DNA of 64,000 nucleotides from positions 372,001-436,000 of the forward strand of contig NZ_CP036537.1 of assembly GCF_021184025.1 (NCBI RefSeq), written 5' to 3'. Shown here in pieces: positions 9,926-52,036 of this stretch. The translations under genes were made by a program, and so were the position numbers. Positions within the stretch are counted from its first letter, which is position 1; each line of letters begins with the position of its first letter. The notes under the pieces are model-generated. The model saw nothing but the letters and a program-made list of their open reading frames with translations, made no database searches and was not told the origin of the DNA. This DNA is from Rhodopseudomonas boonkerdii (lineage in GTDB: Bacteria > Pseudomonadota > Alphaproteobacteria > Rhizobiales > Xanthobacteraceae).

Positions 9926-10027
9926 GACGGCGTTCGCCTGGGATCGTCGGACGGGAGCGGATAGGGCATGCCAGAAAAATCAGAGCAAAGCTTCAGTCCG
10001 TCTTCGCCCTGCGGGCTTCGCCGGACA

Positions 10028-10085
10028 CCACGCTTCGCCAATCGGCTCTGCGCGGCTGCGCCACGCGTAGCCAACTGGCGAAGCG

Positions 10086-10088
<3 letters not shown>
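10028..10088. repeat. 13-bp inverted repeat overlapping the tRNA-Ala 3' end
   Basis: Perfect arms CCACGCTTCGCCA (10028-10040) and TGGCGAAGCGTGG (10076-10088) with a 35-base spacer. The right arm includes the CCA end of the minus-strand tRNA, so the primary transcript could fold into a 13-bp stem directly at the mature 3' end. The spacer is GC-rich and has further small stems. Confidence 0.7.
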
Positions 10089-10161
<73 letters not shown>

Positions 10162-36497: not shown

Positions 36498-36956
36498 TTA
36501 CCTGCCTGTCGACCCAAACCCGCCGCTACCGCGCTCTGTCTCGCCCAGAGCCTGTACCACCATGAGTTCCGCCTGGCTCACCGGTGCGATCACCATCTGC
36601 GCGATTCTTTCTCCGCGCCGGATCGTGAAGGCTGCGCTGCCGTGATTGATCAGCAGCACCGAGATCTCGCCGCGATAATCCGCATCGATCGTGCCAGGCG
36701 AATTCAGCACCGTGACGCCGTGCTTCGCCGCCAGCCCCGACCGCGGACGCACCTGCGCCTCATAGCCATCAGGCAGCGCAATGCTCAGGGCTGTCGGTAC
36801 CATCGCGTACTGGCCGGGTTCGAGGGTCACAGGCGCGGAATCCGGTACTGCCGCCAGCAGGTCCATGCCGGCGGCATGCGCGGTCTGATAGGCCGGCAGC
36901 GGCAGGCCCGCGCCATGGGGCAATTGCTGGACATCGACGGTGATGGCGGCGGTCAT
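36498..36956 (-). CDS. dut: dUTP diphosphatase
   Basis: 152-residue trimeric dUTPase, which removes dUTP and supplies dUMP for thymidylate. Five motifs are visible: [41 protein letters not shown] and, at the C-terminus, [11 protein letters not shown]. The start at 36956 overlaps the coaBC stop (ATGA). The dfp/coaBC-dut pairing is known from E. coli. A TGTCCC-rich region precedes it inside coaBC, so translation is probably coupled. Confidence 0.96.
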
Positions 36957-38407
36957 GCAGTGTCCCTCGTCACGGCGGAAGCGATGCGCGCGACCAGGGT
37001 CGCGGCGACATCCTCCTTGCTCATCGGCGCCCATGAATCAACGGCGATCTCGCCCGTTGCCTTGTCGCGCGTGAGCAGGTTCACGGTATTGCTGTCGCCA
37101 CCCATGATACCGGTGGCCGGCGAGACGTCGTTGGCGACGATCCAGTCGCAGCCCTTGCGCTTGATCTTGGCTGTCGCGTTGTCGATCAGGTGTTCGGTCT
37201 CGGCGGCGAAGCCGATCACCAGCGGCGGACGATTGGTGTCGAGCTTCGAGATCGTCGCGAGGATGTCCGGGTTCTCGGTGAGCTGCAGCGGCGCCATCGT
37301 CTCGCCGGCTTTCTTCTTCAGCTTCTGCGCGCCTTCATTGACGACGCGCCAATCCGCGACAGCTGCAGCGAAGATCGCGATATCGACCGGTAACGTCGCT
37401 TCGACGGCGCTCAGCATGTCACGCGCAGATTCAACGTGCCTCACATTCACGCCGCGTGGTTCATCGAGCTCGACCGGCCCCGAAACCAGAATCACTTCAG
37501 CTCCCGCAGCACGCGCGGCATCGGCGATCGCGTAGCCCTGCTTGCCCGACGAACGATTGGCGATATAGCGGACCGGATCGATCGGCTCATGGGTCGGTCC
37601 GGCGGTGATCAGCACGCGCTTGCCCTTCAGCGGCTGCGGCCGCTGCGGTCGCAGCAGCACGTTGGCGGCGTCCGAGATTTCCGTCGGCTCCGCCATCCGT
37701 CCGACGCCGGCTTCGTTCCGCTCCGCCATCTCGCCGGCATTCGGCCCGATCATTCGGACGCCATCGTGCAGGAGCTGCGCGACATTGCGTTTCGTTGCGG
37801 CATTGCTCCACATCAGCGGATTCATCGCCGGCGCGATCAAAATCGGTTTGTTCGATGCGAGCAGGATCGCGGACGCAAGATCGTCCGCATGGCCGTTTGC
37901 CATCTTGGCCATCAGGTCCGCGGTGGCCGGCGCGACGACGATGAGATCGCACTCGCGCGCGAGGCGGATATGCCCGGCATCGAACTCGCTCTGCGGATCG
38001 AACAGGTCGGTATAGGCGCGTTCGTTGGAAAGCGCCGAGGCGGCGAGCGCGGTGACGAATTTCTGCGCCGCCTGGGTCAGGACGACGCGGACATGGATGC
38101 CGCGTTCCTTGATCCGGCGGATCAGGTCGAGCGATTTATAGGCGGCGATACCGCCGCCGATGATCAGCGTGACCTTCGGCTGGCTGCCACTGTGTTGCCG
38201 CAAGATTTCACGTGCATGCGGGGCTGCCGAGGCAGTTTCGGCGGCCGGCTCTGGGGGAAAACCAGAGGCAGACATGTGGCCGCCTTGCGATGCCTCACGC
38301 AAGATGACCCGGACCTCGTCCTCCACCGACCGCCCGTTGCGGGCCGCCCGGAGCCGCAATTCGTCGCGGATGGCATCGTCGAGCTTGCGGATGGTGAGAT
38401 TGGCCAT
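36953..38407 (-). CDS. coaBC: CoaBC with N-terminal ribbon-helix-helix (FitA-like) domain
   Basis: 484-residue protein. Residues of about 75-245 are CoaC (4'-phosphopantothenoylcysteine decarboxylase): [34 protein letters not shown] and APAMNPLMW. Residues of about 260-475 are CoaB (phosphopantothenate-cysteine ligase): [20 protein letters not shown] and the CTP-site AAVADWR. Residues 1-42 match FitA/VapB-type antitoxins ([30 protein letters not shown]). Both the ATG at 38407 (SD GAGG) and an internal ATG at 38275 ([14 protein letters not shown]) have ribosome-binding sites, so a short form is possible. A 35-bp palindrome lies at 38428-38462. Confidence 0.92.
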
Positions 38408-38427
38408 GGGCGCCTCGCGCTATTCTG

Positions 38428-38462
38428 ATTGCAATGCTAGCATGATATGCTGGCATTGCAAT
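38428..38462. promoter_or_regulatory. 35-bp palindrome upstream of coaBC, candidate RHH operator
   Basis: ATTGCAATGCTAGCAT - GAT - ATGCTGGCATTGCAAT: two 16-bp arms with one mismatch. It is 20 bases upstream of the RHH-CoaBC start and ends at the ubiB stop. Autoregulatory palindromes just upstream are usual for FitA/VapB antitoxins, so this may be the binding site of the fused domain. Confidence 0.6.
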
Positions 38463-40030
38463 CATCGCACGGTGAGCAAAATCCCGATGAATGTGAGCGC
38501 GATCACCCAGATGCCGATGGTCCGCCAGCGCGTCTGCCTTGCGCGGATTCTCCCAATGGCGGCAATGGTTTCATTGTCGAGCCGGACGCCGTTCCGGGTC
38601 ATGGTTTCGAGCTGTTCGAGCACGGCGAGCGCCCGTGTCGCCAGCGCCGGCAGACCGGACGCCGCCTTGCCGAGCTCGCCGGCACCCGCGAGGGCGCCCT
38701 GGATCTTGCCCAGCGGCCCCAGATTACGCTCGATCCACTCGCGGACCACGGGATCGGCGACCTTCCAGATGTCCAGCTTCGGATCGAAAGTGCGCGCGAC
38801 GCCTTCGACCACGACCATGGTTTTCTGCAACAGAATCAATTCCGGCCGTGTCTGCATGTCGAACAGGCCGGTGACTTCCAGCAGCAAGGTCAACAGCTTG
38901 GCCATGGAGATTTCCTCGGCCGTGCGATTGTGAATCGGCTCGCCGATGGCACGGATGGCCTGCGCGAAATTCTCCACCGAGTGATGGCCGGGCACATAGC
39001 CGGCCTCGAAATGCACTTCCGCGACCCGGCGATAATTGCGTGTGATGAAGCCGAGCAGGATTTCCGCGAGGAATCTCCGCTCCTTGAGCCCCAGCCGGCC
39101 CATGATGCCGAAGTCGACGGCCACCAGCCGACCGTCATCGCCGAGGAACAGGTTTCCCGGATGCATGTCGGCATGGAAGAAGCCGTCGCGCAGCGCATGG
39201 CGCAGAAAGCTCTGGATCACCTTGCGGCCGAGATCGGGCAGGTCGACATTGGCCGCCGCCAGTTTGGCGTGGTCGTTCAGCGCGATGCCGTCGATCCACT
39301 CCATCGTCAGCACATTGTGCGAGGTACGGTCCCAATCGACCGCGGGGACGCGGAAATCCGGATCGTTCTTCGTATTCTCCGCCATCTCGGAGAGTGCGGC
39401 AGCTTCAAGCCGGAGATCCATCTCCATCGCCACCGAGCGCGACATCACGGTGATGATTTCGACGAGCCGCAGGCGGCGCGCTTCGGTCGAATAGTGCTCG
39501 GCATTGCGTGCGACGAAGAAGAAGTCGCCGAGGTCGCGACGGAATTGCGCGGATACGTTCGGCCGCAGCACCTTCACGGCAACCATCTTGCGGACGCCGT
39601 CCTTGATCACTTCGGCGCGATGCACCTGCGCGATCGAGGCTGCAGCCACCGGCGGGGAAAAGCTCGCATAGAGCTGTGCCATCGGCCGCTCCAGCGAGGC
39701 CGCAACCACATGCTCGGCTTCGGTCAGCGAGAATGGGGGAAGGCGGTCCTGCAGATTCTCCAGATCGCGCGCCATGGCTATGCCGACGACGTCGGGGCGC
39801 GTGGCGAGAAATTGGCCGAGCTTCAGATAGGCCGGTCCCAAGCGTGTCAACGCGCGTGAGAGCTTCGGGCCGGTCTGCGCATTCTTGCGCTCGATCAGCC
39901 GCGCGATCTTCACGGCCAGCAGCGCCGGCGGCGGAATCAGCGCGGGATCGACGGCGCCGAACACCCCCTCGCGTGCGAACACGATGCCGGCGCGGGCCAG
40001 CCGCGTCATATGCGAAAGTGCGGAGATCAC
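38462..40030 (-). CDS. ubiB: ubiquinone biosynthesis protein UbiB
   Basis: 522-residue ABC1/ADCK-type atypical kinase needed for ubiquinone synthesis. The KxGQ motif is [12 protein letters not shown]; the A-rich loop is [15 protein letters not shown]. The catalytic loop is [28 protein letters not shown]. Two C-terminal hydrophobic segments (from about residue 495, [18 protein letters not shown]) anchor it in the membrane. It starts with GTG overlapping the ubiE stop (GTGA), and coaBC follows after the palindrome. Confidence 0.95.
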
Positions 40031-49994: not shown

Positions 49995-50885
49995 TCACTT
50001 GATGGGGGGCTGCGGGAGCACGGCTTCGCCGGGCTCCATCACGAATGTGTAGTTGAGGCTGAACCATTCGCCGCTGACGTCCGGCGCAGGCGGCGATCCC
50101 TCGCCTTTGCGAAAATCGCCGATCAACGCACGGGTCACGCCGAACACGACATCGCTCTCCAGATGTTCGTCGTCATCGACGAAGATCTGGGTGATCAATG
50201 TCTTGAAGCCGGGTTTGTAAGCGAGGACATGCAGATGCGCCGGCCGGTAGGGATGACGGCGCTGCGCGGCCAGCAACTCGCCGGTCGGGCCATGGGTCGG
50301 CACCGGATAGCCCGCCGGCTTCACCGAGCGAAAACCGAAGCGGCCGTCCGCGTCGGTCTCGAACACGCCGCGCAGGTTCATGTCGGCCTGTCCGGCATCC
50401 TGGTTCTCGTACATGCCTGACGGGGACGCCTGCCAGACATCGACGCGGACGCCTGGGATCGGGGCGCCCCGACCATCGCGAATACGGCAATCGACAAAAA
50501 GCGGCGCTCCTGGAGTGGGCGAGCGCACGATAGATGCGCCGTTCGCCGTATGCGGCGCGTTGGCGCGCCAGAACGGGCCGAGCAGCGCTGCGGCGGTCTC
50601 GCTGGCGCCGTCCTGCCCGTTGTTCAGCAGGCACACCAGCGTGGACAGGCCGACGGCATCGCTGAACAGCACGCCCTCGTTGTGGGTGTCGTTGGTCGCC
50701 TGGCCGATCCGGTTGAGGAAATCGATGGCGAATTCGAACTCGGTTTCGGTCAGCCGGACTTCGCGGGCGAATTCATGGAGATGGCGCACGAAGGCCGCCA
50801 TGACCGTGCGCAGCCGGTCGTCCGGCGCACGACTCATGGCGTCGAGAACGACGTCGGTAACGTCCTGCTGACGTGTGATGATCAT
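49995..50885 (-). CDS. intradiol ring-cleavage dioxygenase
   Basis: 296-residue non-haem Fe(III) dioxygenase of the catechol / hydroxyquinol 1,2-dioxygenase type. The N-terminal dimerisation helices (LTETEFEFAIDFLNRIG) are followed by the catalytic domain. The four iron ligands are visible as in the family: Tyr in SGMYENQD, Tyr in AGYPVPT, and two His in RPAHLHVL. The start at 50885 has GGGAGG 5 bases upstream. It is the first gene of the minus-strand catabolic cluster, divergent from the LacI-type gene. Hydroxyquinol is the likeliest substrate class, but this is not certain. Confidence 0.9.
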   Translation of the reverse strand: MIITRQQDVTDVVLDAMSRAPDDRLRTVMAAFVRHLHEFAREVRLTETEFEFAIDFLNRIGQATNDTHNEGVLFSDAVGLSTLVCLLNNGQDGASETAAALLGPFWRANAPHTANGASIVRSPTPGAPLFVDCRIRDGRGAPIPGVRVDVWQASPSGMYENQDAGQADMNLRGVFETDADGRFGFRSVKPAGYPVPTHGPTGELLAAQRRHPYRPAHLHVLAYKPGFKTLITQIFVDDDEHLESDVVFGVTRALIGDFRKGEGSPPAPDVSGEWFSLNYTFVMEPGEAVLPQPPIK

Positions 50886-50946
50886 GGGGGCCTCCCGGTC
50901 GATCAAGCTGTTGCGTCTTGTCGCGCATGGGGACGGCGCGTTGTGC

Positions 50947-50958
50947 GCAATCGATTGC
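50947..50958. promoter_or_regulatory. LacI-family operator, site 1
   Basis: Perfect palindrome GCAATCGATTGC in the divergent dioxygenase/LacI gene gap. The centre-to-centre spacing to site 2 is 24 bp. The central CG and AT-rich flanks match LacI-family operators. Confidence 0.7.
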
Positions 50959-50970
50959 ATTGACGTTAAT

Positions 50971-50982
50971 GCAAACGTTTGC
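50971..50982. promoter_or_regulatory. LacI-family operator, site 2
   Basis: Perfect palindrome GCAAACGTTTGC in the same intergenic region, close to the LacI-type gene start at 51014. The AACGTT core is typical of the family. Confidence 0.75.
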
Positions 50983-51013
50983 GCACGTCAAGGGGAGCGT
51001 TTAGGATGCCGGC

Positions 51014-52036
51014 ATGGCAGCTGTTGTGACGATCAAGGACGTGGCACGGGAGGTGGGGGTTCATCCATCCACGGTATCGCGCGCGCTAGATCCGGCACGC
51101 CGCGACCGGCTCGGCGAGCCCGTGGTTCGCCGGGTGCTGGAAGCGGCGGAGCGGCTCGGCTACCGGCCAGACGTGGTCGCCGCGAGCTTGCGCAGCGGCC
51201 GGTCCCGGCTCATCGGCATCGTCGTTCCTGACATCGCCAATCCCGTGTTTTCGCCGATCATCAGCGGGCTCGAGCGCGCACTGGCGGCGCGGGGGTATGC
51301 CTTGATCGTGGCCGACCAGCGGCCGGACCTCGCTGGCGGAAACGATCTCGTCCAGATGCTGATCGCCCGCCGGGTCGACGGGCTGGTGCTTGCCAATGTC
51401 GCCTTGAAGGACGACGCCGTGGAGCGCTGCCTGCGCGCGCAGATTCCGGTGGTGCTGGTCAACCGCGCCGAGGGGCAGACGCGGGTGCCGTCCGTGGTGT
51501 CGGACGATTTAGCCGGCATTACGCTGGCGGTGGATCATCTGATCGCGTCTGGGCACCGACGCATCGTTCATGTGGCGGGTCCGCAGTCCCTATCCACGGG
51601 CATGCTCCGCCGTCGCGGATTTGTTACCGCGATGCGGGCTGCCGGCCTCGATCCCGACGAAGACGATATCGAGGAAGCCGCGGCCTTCACGCGGGAGGCC
51701 GGGTTGCCCGCAGCGCGGGCCCTGCTGGCGCGGCGGCCGGACGCCACGGCTGTCGTCGCTGCCAACGATCTGCTCGCGCTCGGCGTCTATGAGGCGCTGC
51801 GCGAACAGGGGCGGCGTTGCCCGGAGGATGTGTCGGTGATCGGCCACAACGACATGCCGCTGGTCGATCTCGTCAATCCGCCACTTTCCACTGTGCGCAT
51901 CAGCCACCACGAAATGGGCGAACGGACCGGGGAACTGCTGCTCGATCTGATCGCTGGCACCCATCAGGGCGCGCTGCAGATCGTCACCTCGCCGGTGCTT
52001 GTCGCCCGCGCATCGACGCGACCGTTGGAAAACTGA
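51014..52036 (+). CDS. LacI-family transcriptional regulator
   Basis: 340-residue repressor. The helix-turn-helix is VTIKDVAREVGVHPSTVSRALDP (about residues 5-27, cited in part). The hinge helix region is RPDVVAASLRSGRSRLIG, and a periplasmic-binding-protein-like sensor domain fills the rest (IVVPDIANPVFSPI, VSVIGHNDMPLVDLVNPPLSTV). It is divergent from the dioxygenase operon, with two palindromes between. It probably represses the cluster until the inducer, perhaps a ring-cleavage substrate or product, is bound. The inducer is unknown. AGGA lies 8 bases upstream of the ATG. Confidence 0.93.
   Translation: MAAVVTIKDVAREVGVHPSTVSRALDPARRDRLGEPVVRRVLEAAERLGYRPDVVAASLRSGRSRLIGIVVPDIANPVFSPIISGLERALAARGYALIVADQRPDLAGGNDLVQMLIARRVDGLVLANVALKDDAVERCLRAQIPVVLVNRAEGQTRVPSVVSDDLAGITLAVDHLIASGHRRIVHVAGPQSLSTGMLRRRGFVTAMRAAGLDPDEDDIEEAAAFTREAGLPAARALLARRPDATAVVAANDLLALGVYEALREQGRRCPEDVSVIGHNDMPLVDLVNPPLSTVRISHHEMGERTGELLLDLIAGTHQGALQIVTSPVLVARASTRPLEN

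Follow-up and report, generated by a model that had tools for sequence, protein, structure and literature searches.

A close parallel to the protein considered here is PutA. According to PMC5293562, the trifunctional PutA is a flavoenzyme whose N-terminal ribbon-helix-helix (RHH) domain makes it an autogenous repressor of its own regulon, and RHH grafting confers DNA binding. Toxin-antitoxin modules of the FitAB/VapBC type are another point of comparison, in which an RHH of family PF22513 goes together with upstream palindromic sites; some relatives carry a module of this kind on the 5' side of coaBC. For CoaBC itself, the mycobacterial enzyme is a dodecamer in which CoaB is inhibited by CoA and CoA thioesters (passages of PMC7794376), and coaBC is essential in B. 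subtilis (passages of PMC11487621). The latter passages describe no transcriptional self-control of CoaBC, and a search of the open-licence PMC literature found no paper in which CoaBC binds DNA or controls its own transcription.

The coaBC gene examined here lies in a 64-kb stretch of DNA (the window). An earlier note on this DNA had read its product as a 484-residue CoaBC with a FitA-type RHH at the N terminus, and the open reading frame, Pfam and NCBIfam all confirm this (Table 1). The NCBIfam model coaBC_dfp (TIGR00521) scores 389.3 bits against a cut-off of 219.7, which places both CoaBC domains above the curated cut-off, and the N-terminal part belongs to the FitA-like RHH family, with a PF22513 score above the gathering cut-off. 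Residues 2-38 also match the structures 2bsq and 2h1o of FitA from Neisseria gonorrhoeae (E 0.0026-0.0028). In the CoaC part, H146, P193, M195, N196, M199 and W200, residues with catalytic roles, are invariant in a 40-row alignment (A1).

Table 1. Positions in the window of coaBC, its domains, its neighbours and the proposed operator; the start codon of dut was chosen by us.
Feature	Position	Strand	Remarks
coaBC, RHH-CoaC-CoaB fusion	36953..38407	-	ATG start, 484 codons + stop
FitA-like RHH domain, residues 2-39	38291..38404	-	PF22513, 56.2 bits (cut-off 27)
Variable linker, residues 40-76	38180..38290	-	Pairwise identity 0.18, dN/dS 0.46
CoaC decarboxylase (Flavoprotein), residues 78-242	37682..38176	-	Pfam
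CoaB ligase (DFP), residues 260-444	37076..37630	-	Pfam
ubiB-like, ABC1 kinase-like, PF03109	38462..40030	-	Neighbour 5' of coaBC, 54-nt gap
dut, dUTPase, PF00692	36498..36956	-	Start overlaps coaBC stop (ATGA)
In-frame ATG (M45), proposed second start	38273..38275	-	Not conserved
Proposed operator, 39-bp palindrome	38426..38464	.	Two 17-bp units 5 bp apart; overlaps ubiB stop codon
Operator unit TGATTGCAATGCCAGCA	38448..38464	-	Half-length pattern
Operator unit TGATTGCAATGCTAGCA	38426..38442	+	Half-length pattern

Canonical CoaBC, such as 6tgv of M. smegmatis or the E. coli protein, has the same two catalytic domains, but the 19 PDB sequence matches in this comparison all start at residue 75 or later, and none covers the RHH. 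PutA is another enzyme and works in a catabolic pathway, whereas the RHH of CoaBC is FitA-type and probably comes from a toxin-antitoxin module. Unlike FitAB/VapBC, the fusion lacks the toxin and has the antitoxin domain joined to a metabolic enzyme; by eye, the antitoxin tail is not recognised in it. The locus itself does not qualify as a type II toxin-antitoxin system: the neighbours of coaBC are the ubiB-like gene and dut, and no toxin gene is adjacent.

The palindrome that the earlier note had placed upstream of coaBC is present and slightly longer than described there. Its 18-nt arms (38426-38443 and 38447-38464) are 94% complementary with 3 nt between them, and it sits 18 bases 5' of the coaBC ATG, taking in the ubiB stop codon. 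It scores 15.5, whereas the best palindrome reached at most 14.0 when the entire window was dinucleotide-shuffled 20 times. Two other palindromes of the window score higher (18.5 and 16.0). The units TGATTGCAATGCCAGCA and TGATTGCAATGCTAGCA face each other and are made of TGATNGCA-type half-sites. For FitA, we take the operator half-site to be TGATAGCA/TGCTATCA. Passages of PMC3325190 and PMC6265470 do not give its sequence.

The half-sites can be followed across relatives by searching the 120 bp that precede the RHH start. After loci with shorter or identical upstreams had been left out, 96 distinct RHH loci were compared (88 fused, five with an antitoxin and a toxin or toxin remnant, and three with a separate RHH; L032 and L128 are included). 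An exact TGATWGCA/TGCWATCA is present in 80 of them, versus 0 of 76 CoaBC loci without RHH, although these are not 80 independent events, because related loci share history. At least two exact half-sites are found in 60 of the 96, and after shuffling of the RHH-locus upstreams the motif turns up in 2.9 of 96 on average and in 8 at most. The looser TGATNGCA/TGCNATCA gives 82/96 versus 2/76. Start-to-start distances between half-sites are mostly 9, 14, 18, 22, 23, 31 and 32 bp, and 68 of 100 RHH loci contain a pair of sites at the 9-bp distance. Among 93 fused upstreams, TGATNNCA is present in 85 and not found in eight, including L002, L023, L173 and L174; the nearest relative, L002, has a degenerate palindrome instead, and no site is seen by eye in the upstreams of L023, L173 and L174. 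Outside the family, in a set separate from the 96, TGATNNCA sites occur at seven of ten RHH-coaBC or RHH-PIN-coaBC loci, and the remaining three (L230, L295 and L307) have TGAY variants by eye. Of six free-standing FitA-PIN loci elsewhere, two have TGATNNCA upstream, so the antitoxin family as a whole does not share the motif.

CoaBC carries a DNA-binding piece and has a matching site next to its gene, and therefore probably controls that gene. As with PutA, a DNA-binding domain is fused to an enzyme and conserved operator-like sites accompany the enzyme's own gene, and the best reading is that RHH-CoaBC would fall within the known PutA-like class of autogenously regulated enzymes. We consider it likely that the CoaBC enzyme also binds DNA and regulates its own gene, and that the RHH and operator came from a FitA-PIN module, located between ubiB and coaBC, whose toxin was lost and whose antitoxin became joined in frame to coaBC. 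The idea of self-repression put forward in the earlier note is thus well supported by comparative data, with the fusion conserved and the half-sites tracking the RHH.

The protein might instead be a wider regulator of several promoters and not mainly of its own. In the genome that contains the window (G000), the long operator pattern has one occurrence at up to three mismatches, and the half-length pattern matches both operator units and one further place. This further match to an operator unit, with one mismatch, is at G000:C1:2502786-2502802 (locus L195). We scanned 20 genomes (16 fused, 4 unfused) for a strict 17-bp palindrome, TGATNGCRNYGCNATCA, which 12 of them contain. The 16 fused genomes contain 17 strict sites, nine at coaBC (G024 2/2, G025 1/1, G045 1/1, G086 2/3, G064 2/4 and G040 1/2) and eight away from it; none is at coaBC in G000 (0/1), G088 (0/2) or G034 (0/1), and seven fused genomes have no strict site. 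In 10 of the 16 fused genomes, among them G000, the strict pattern does not pick up the site at coaBC. In the four unfused genomes there are 10 strict sites, seven of them in G022. When sites are split by whether both variable half-site positions are A or T, a split chosen post hoc, all nine fused-genome sites at coaBC have A/T at both and all eight off-coaBC sites have C or G at one; the same restriction, likewise post hoc, leaves six sites in the unfused genomes, five of them in G022. The 8 of 17 strict sites away from coaBC speak for a wider regulator, but the A/T-restricted sites of the fused genomes are all at coaBC and the long operator is unique in G000, and we regard this explanation as unlikely. 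From the genome-wide TGATNGCRNYGCNATCA counts, local control of coaBC is favoured over a regulon, and a small regulon is possible.

It is less likely still that another regulator binds the palindrome and that the RHH has some other role, such as oligomerisation. The motif tracks the RHH, including in fused lineages on separate branches, and it precedes the antitoxin of L114, an unfused locus; moreover, the RHH of coaBC is the only PF22513 match in the window genome. When 219 CoaBC cores were placed in a quick tree, 86 rows (83 fused) fell into the main fused clade (SH-aLRT 92), and the fused label needs nine changes, of which at least four are forced by well-supported branches. A careful 58-row tree, with rows outside family f16 hand-picked to include odd cases, also needs nine, at least seven of them forced; in either tree, a change is a gain or a loss, with repeated fusion, loss and transfer lumped together.

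The RHH could also be a passive toxin-antitoxin leftover with no present function. The earlier note had asked whether relatives keep the fusion, and they do: 117 of 119 genomes of the window organism's family match the CoaBC query, and 66 of the 119 have the full-length fusion, with the alignment starting at residue 1-3 (counted by hand from the listing, with G020 and G006, split or partial cases, left out). Every one of the best 120 of 8000 scored proteins contains PF22513 and both CoaBC domains. The ubiB-like gene is immediately 5' in 81 of 93 fused loci. Fusions are also found in Phyllobacterium sp. 628 and one f24 genus, and none is seen in other orders of the class among the genomes listed. 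The sole listed out-of-order match that begins inside the RHH part (G420, from residue 25) was rejected as a fusion, the locus having no RHH match and just out-of-frame letters. Three apparent split intermediates were likewise set aside: L116/L117 are two contig ends of one genome, L128 is a fragmented gene and L032 is out of frame in a MAG.

Among the 93 distinct fused proteins compared, mean pairwise identity is 0.70 for the RHH, 0.77 for CoaC, 0.71 for CoaB and 0.18 for the linker, and R7, S27, E29 and R33 of the RHH are present in 93/93. Over 310 close pairs, dN/dS is 0.134 for the RHH, 0.464 for the linker and 0.111 for the enzyme core. Because its constraint is close to that of the enzyme and the identities follow the same pattern, the RHH looks like a retained functional part of CoaBC. 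An antitoxin origin is likely and eight of the 93 fused upstreams lack TGATNNCA, as a passive leftover would allow, but the domain is under enzyme-like constraint next to a drifting linker and the sites recur at 9 and 22-23 bp spacings, which makes this explanation very unlikely.

The earlier note had further proposed a second start at 38275, from which an RHH-less enzyme would be made alongside the regulator-enzyme. The in-frame ATG exists, with a purine-rich stretch upstream, but it is not conserved, and as a general feature the second start was rejected. Any Met in the linker is found in 16 of 93 fused homologues and a native-start-like Met in five of 93 (Met only was counted, with GTG and TTG starts outside the count), and the nearest of the loci compared, L002 (92% identical), has Thr at the M45 position. 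The short form is unsupported because the ATG is absent in this nearest relative, and production of two forms is very doubtful.

FitA-PIN modules directly 5' of coaBC recur, in L114, L163, L168 and L169 and in L294, L295, L299 and L307. The order in L114 is ubiB, a TGATTGCAATGCAATCA site, a FitA antitoxin, a PIN toxin (PF01850, 45 bits) and unfused coaBC. L163, L168 and L169 have the antitoxin and a full-length PIN 5' of coaBC, in L113 the PIN that accompanies the antitoxin has an internal deletion, and L115 has the antitoxin with, by eye, an apparent toxin end. A ubiB-like gene is 5' of all five antitoxin-plus-PIN-class loci and of both separate-RHH loci. Family f16 (28 genomes) includes loci with antitoxin and PIN before coaBC (L294, L295, L299 and L307), loci with PIN and no recognised RHH (L297, L300 and L309) and RHH-CoaBC fusions (L291 and L298). 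Upstream motifs of the ubiB-like kind are found in L291, L294, L299 and L307 and were not found in L295 and L298, where the stretch searched may be too short.

It is plausible that the L114-type arrangement is ancestral. Because relatives keep the FitA-PIN pair or toxin remnants, the most likely origin of the fusion is that the toxin was lost and the antitoxin captured, and the suggestion that an antitoxin was captured in place of its toxin partner is well supported by these arrangements. The earlier note had offered self-repression and antitoxin capture as alternatives; both are supported, but the choice between them falls away, since they are two sides of one story. That the fused RHH is still an antitoxin neutralising a PIN toxin, as its membership in an antitoxin family (PF22513) might suggest, is extremely improbable because a search with PF01850 found no FitB-type partner: the sole PF01850 match of the window genome is 2.2 Mb away beside a MazE-like gene (just below cut-off, at 23.7 of 24.7 bits), and the antitoxin tail of L114 and L115 is not recognised by eye in the fused linkers.

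For self-regulation by CoaBC, a mechanism can be proposed. The RHH would dimerise and contact the 39-bp palindrome lying between ubiB and coaBC at its TGATNGCA-type half-sites, and the bound RHH-CoaBC would most likely repress coaBC-dut transcription. A scan of 38300-38700 found no sigma-70-like promoter; because no promoter consensus was found, repression may come from an overlap of operator and promoter, or the bound protein may block transcription that reads through from ubiB. If the dodecamer of the mycobacterial enzyme holds here, each particle would have twelve RHH copies and up to six RHH dimers, which might, more speculatively, co-bind the multi-site operator. If the inhibition by CoA holds as well, the regulator would have a built-in contact with the end product, and it is conceivable that DNA binding responds to CoA or substrate state. 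Should this be true, a domesticated antitoxin controls a housekeeping enzyme, with module, decaying and fused stages all in living relatives; one could then observe and test how a toxin-antitoxin module becomes a metabolic regulator, and CoA synthesis would gain a possible gene-level feedback loop.

Unrelated N-termini, of HTH_3 or HTH-like type, are found on other CoaBC proteins of Hyphomicrobiales. In part of family f32, CoaBC begins with HTH_3 (PF01381; three proteins profiled), a domain seen by eye on 41 of 120 CoaBC proteins among the matches listed. Nine distinct loci were compared (L045, L052, L056, L196-L198, L265, L268 and L286), with L264, L266 and L267 dropped as copies of L052, L056 and L045 with identical upstreams. 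Just 5' of the ATG, an exact TTAC-N7-GTAA is present in six of the nine, in none of 48 controls lacking the domain and in at most one of the shuffled HTH_3-locus upstreams; with up to one mismatch, all nine match, but the matches in L045 and L268 look fortuitous. Like RHH-CoaBC, these proteins have an N-terminal DNA-binding domain, and most of their loci have a palindrome ahead of the ATG, but both the domain and the site are unrelated, and HTH_3-CoaBC is a putative second DNA-binding CoaBC. One genome (L226/L290) has a different HTH_3 domain on CoaBC, with GGATATATCC twice just upstream. L238/L303 and L302, from two genomes of two genera, have a common N-terminal CoaBC domain with no Pfam match, which we read as HTH-like; TAGGATAAATCCTA is upstream of L302. 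We give even chances to the broader idea that CoaBC of Hyphomicrobiales is a recurrent capture site for DNA-binding domains (FitA-RHH in several lineages, two kinds of HTH_3 and the unnamed HTH-like one in others), for which neighbouring toxin-antitoxin modules supply the raw material; through capture, the CoA-inhibited dodecamer would come to sense CoA status and repress its own operon in the manner of PutA.

Elsewhere in the window, the strongest palindrome is at 10026-10090 (65 bp, score 18.5). A strong palindrome at 50943-50986 lies where a catechol dioxygenase-like gene (49995-50960, - strand) begins and also precedes a divergent LacI-type regulator gene (51014-52036, + strand); it looks like an ordinary LacI operator.
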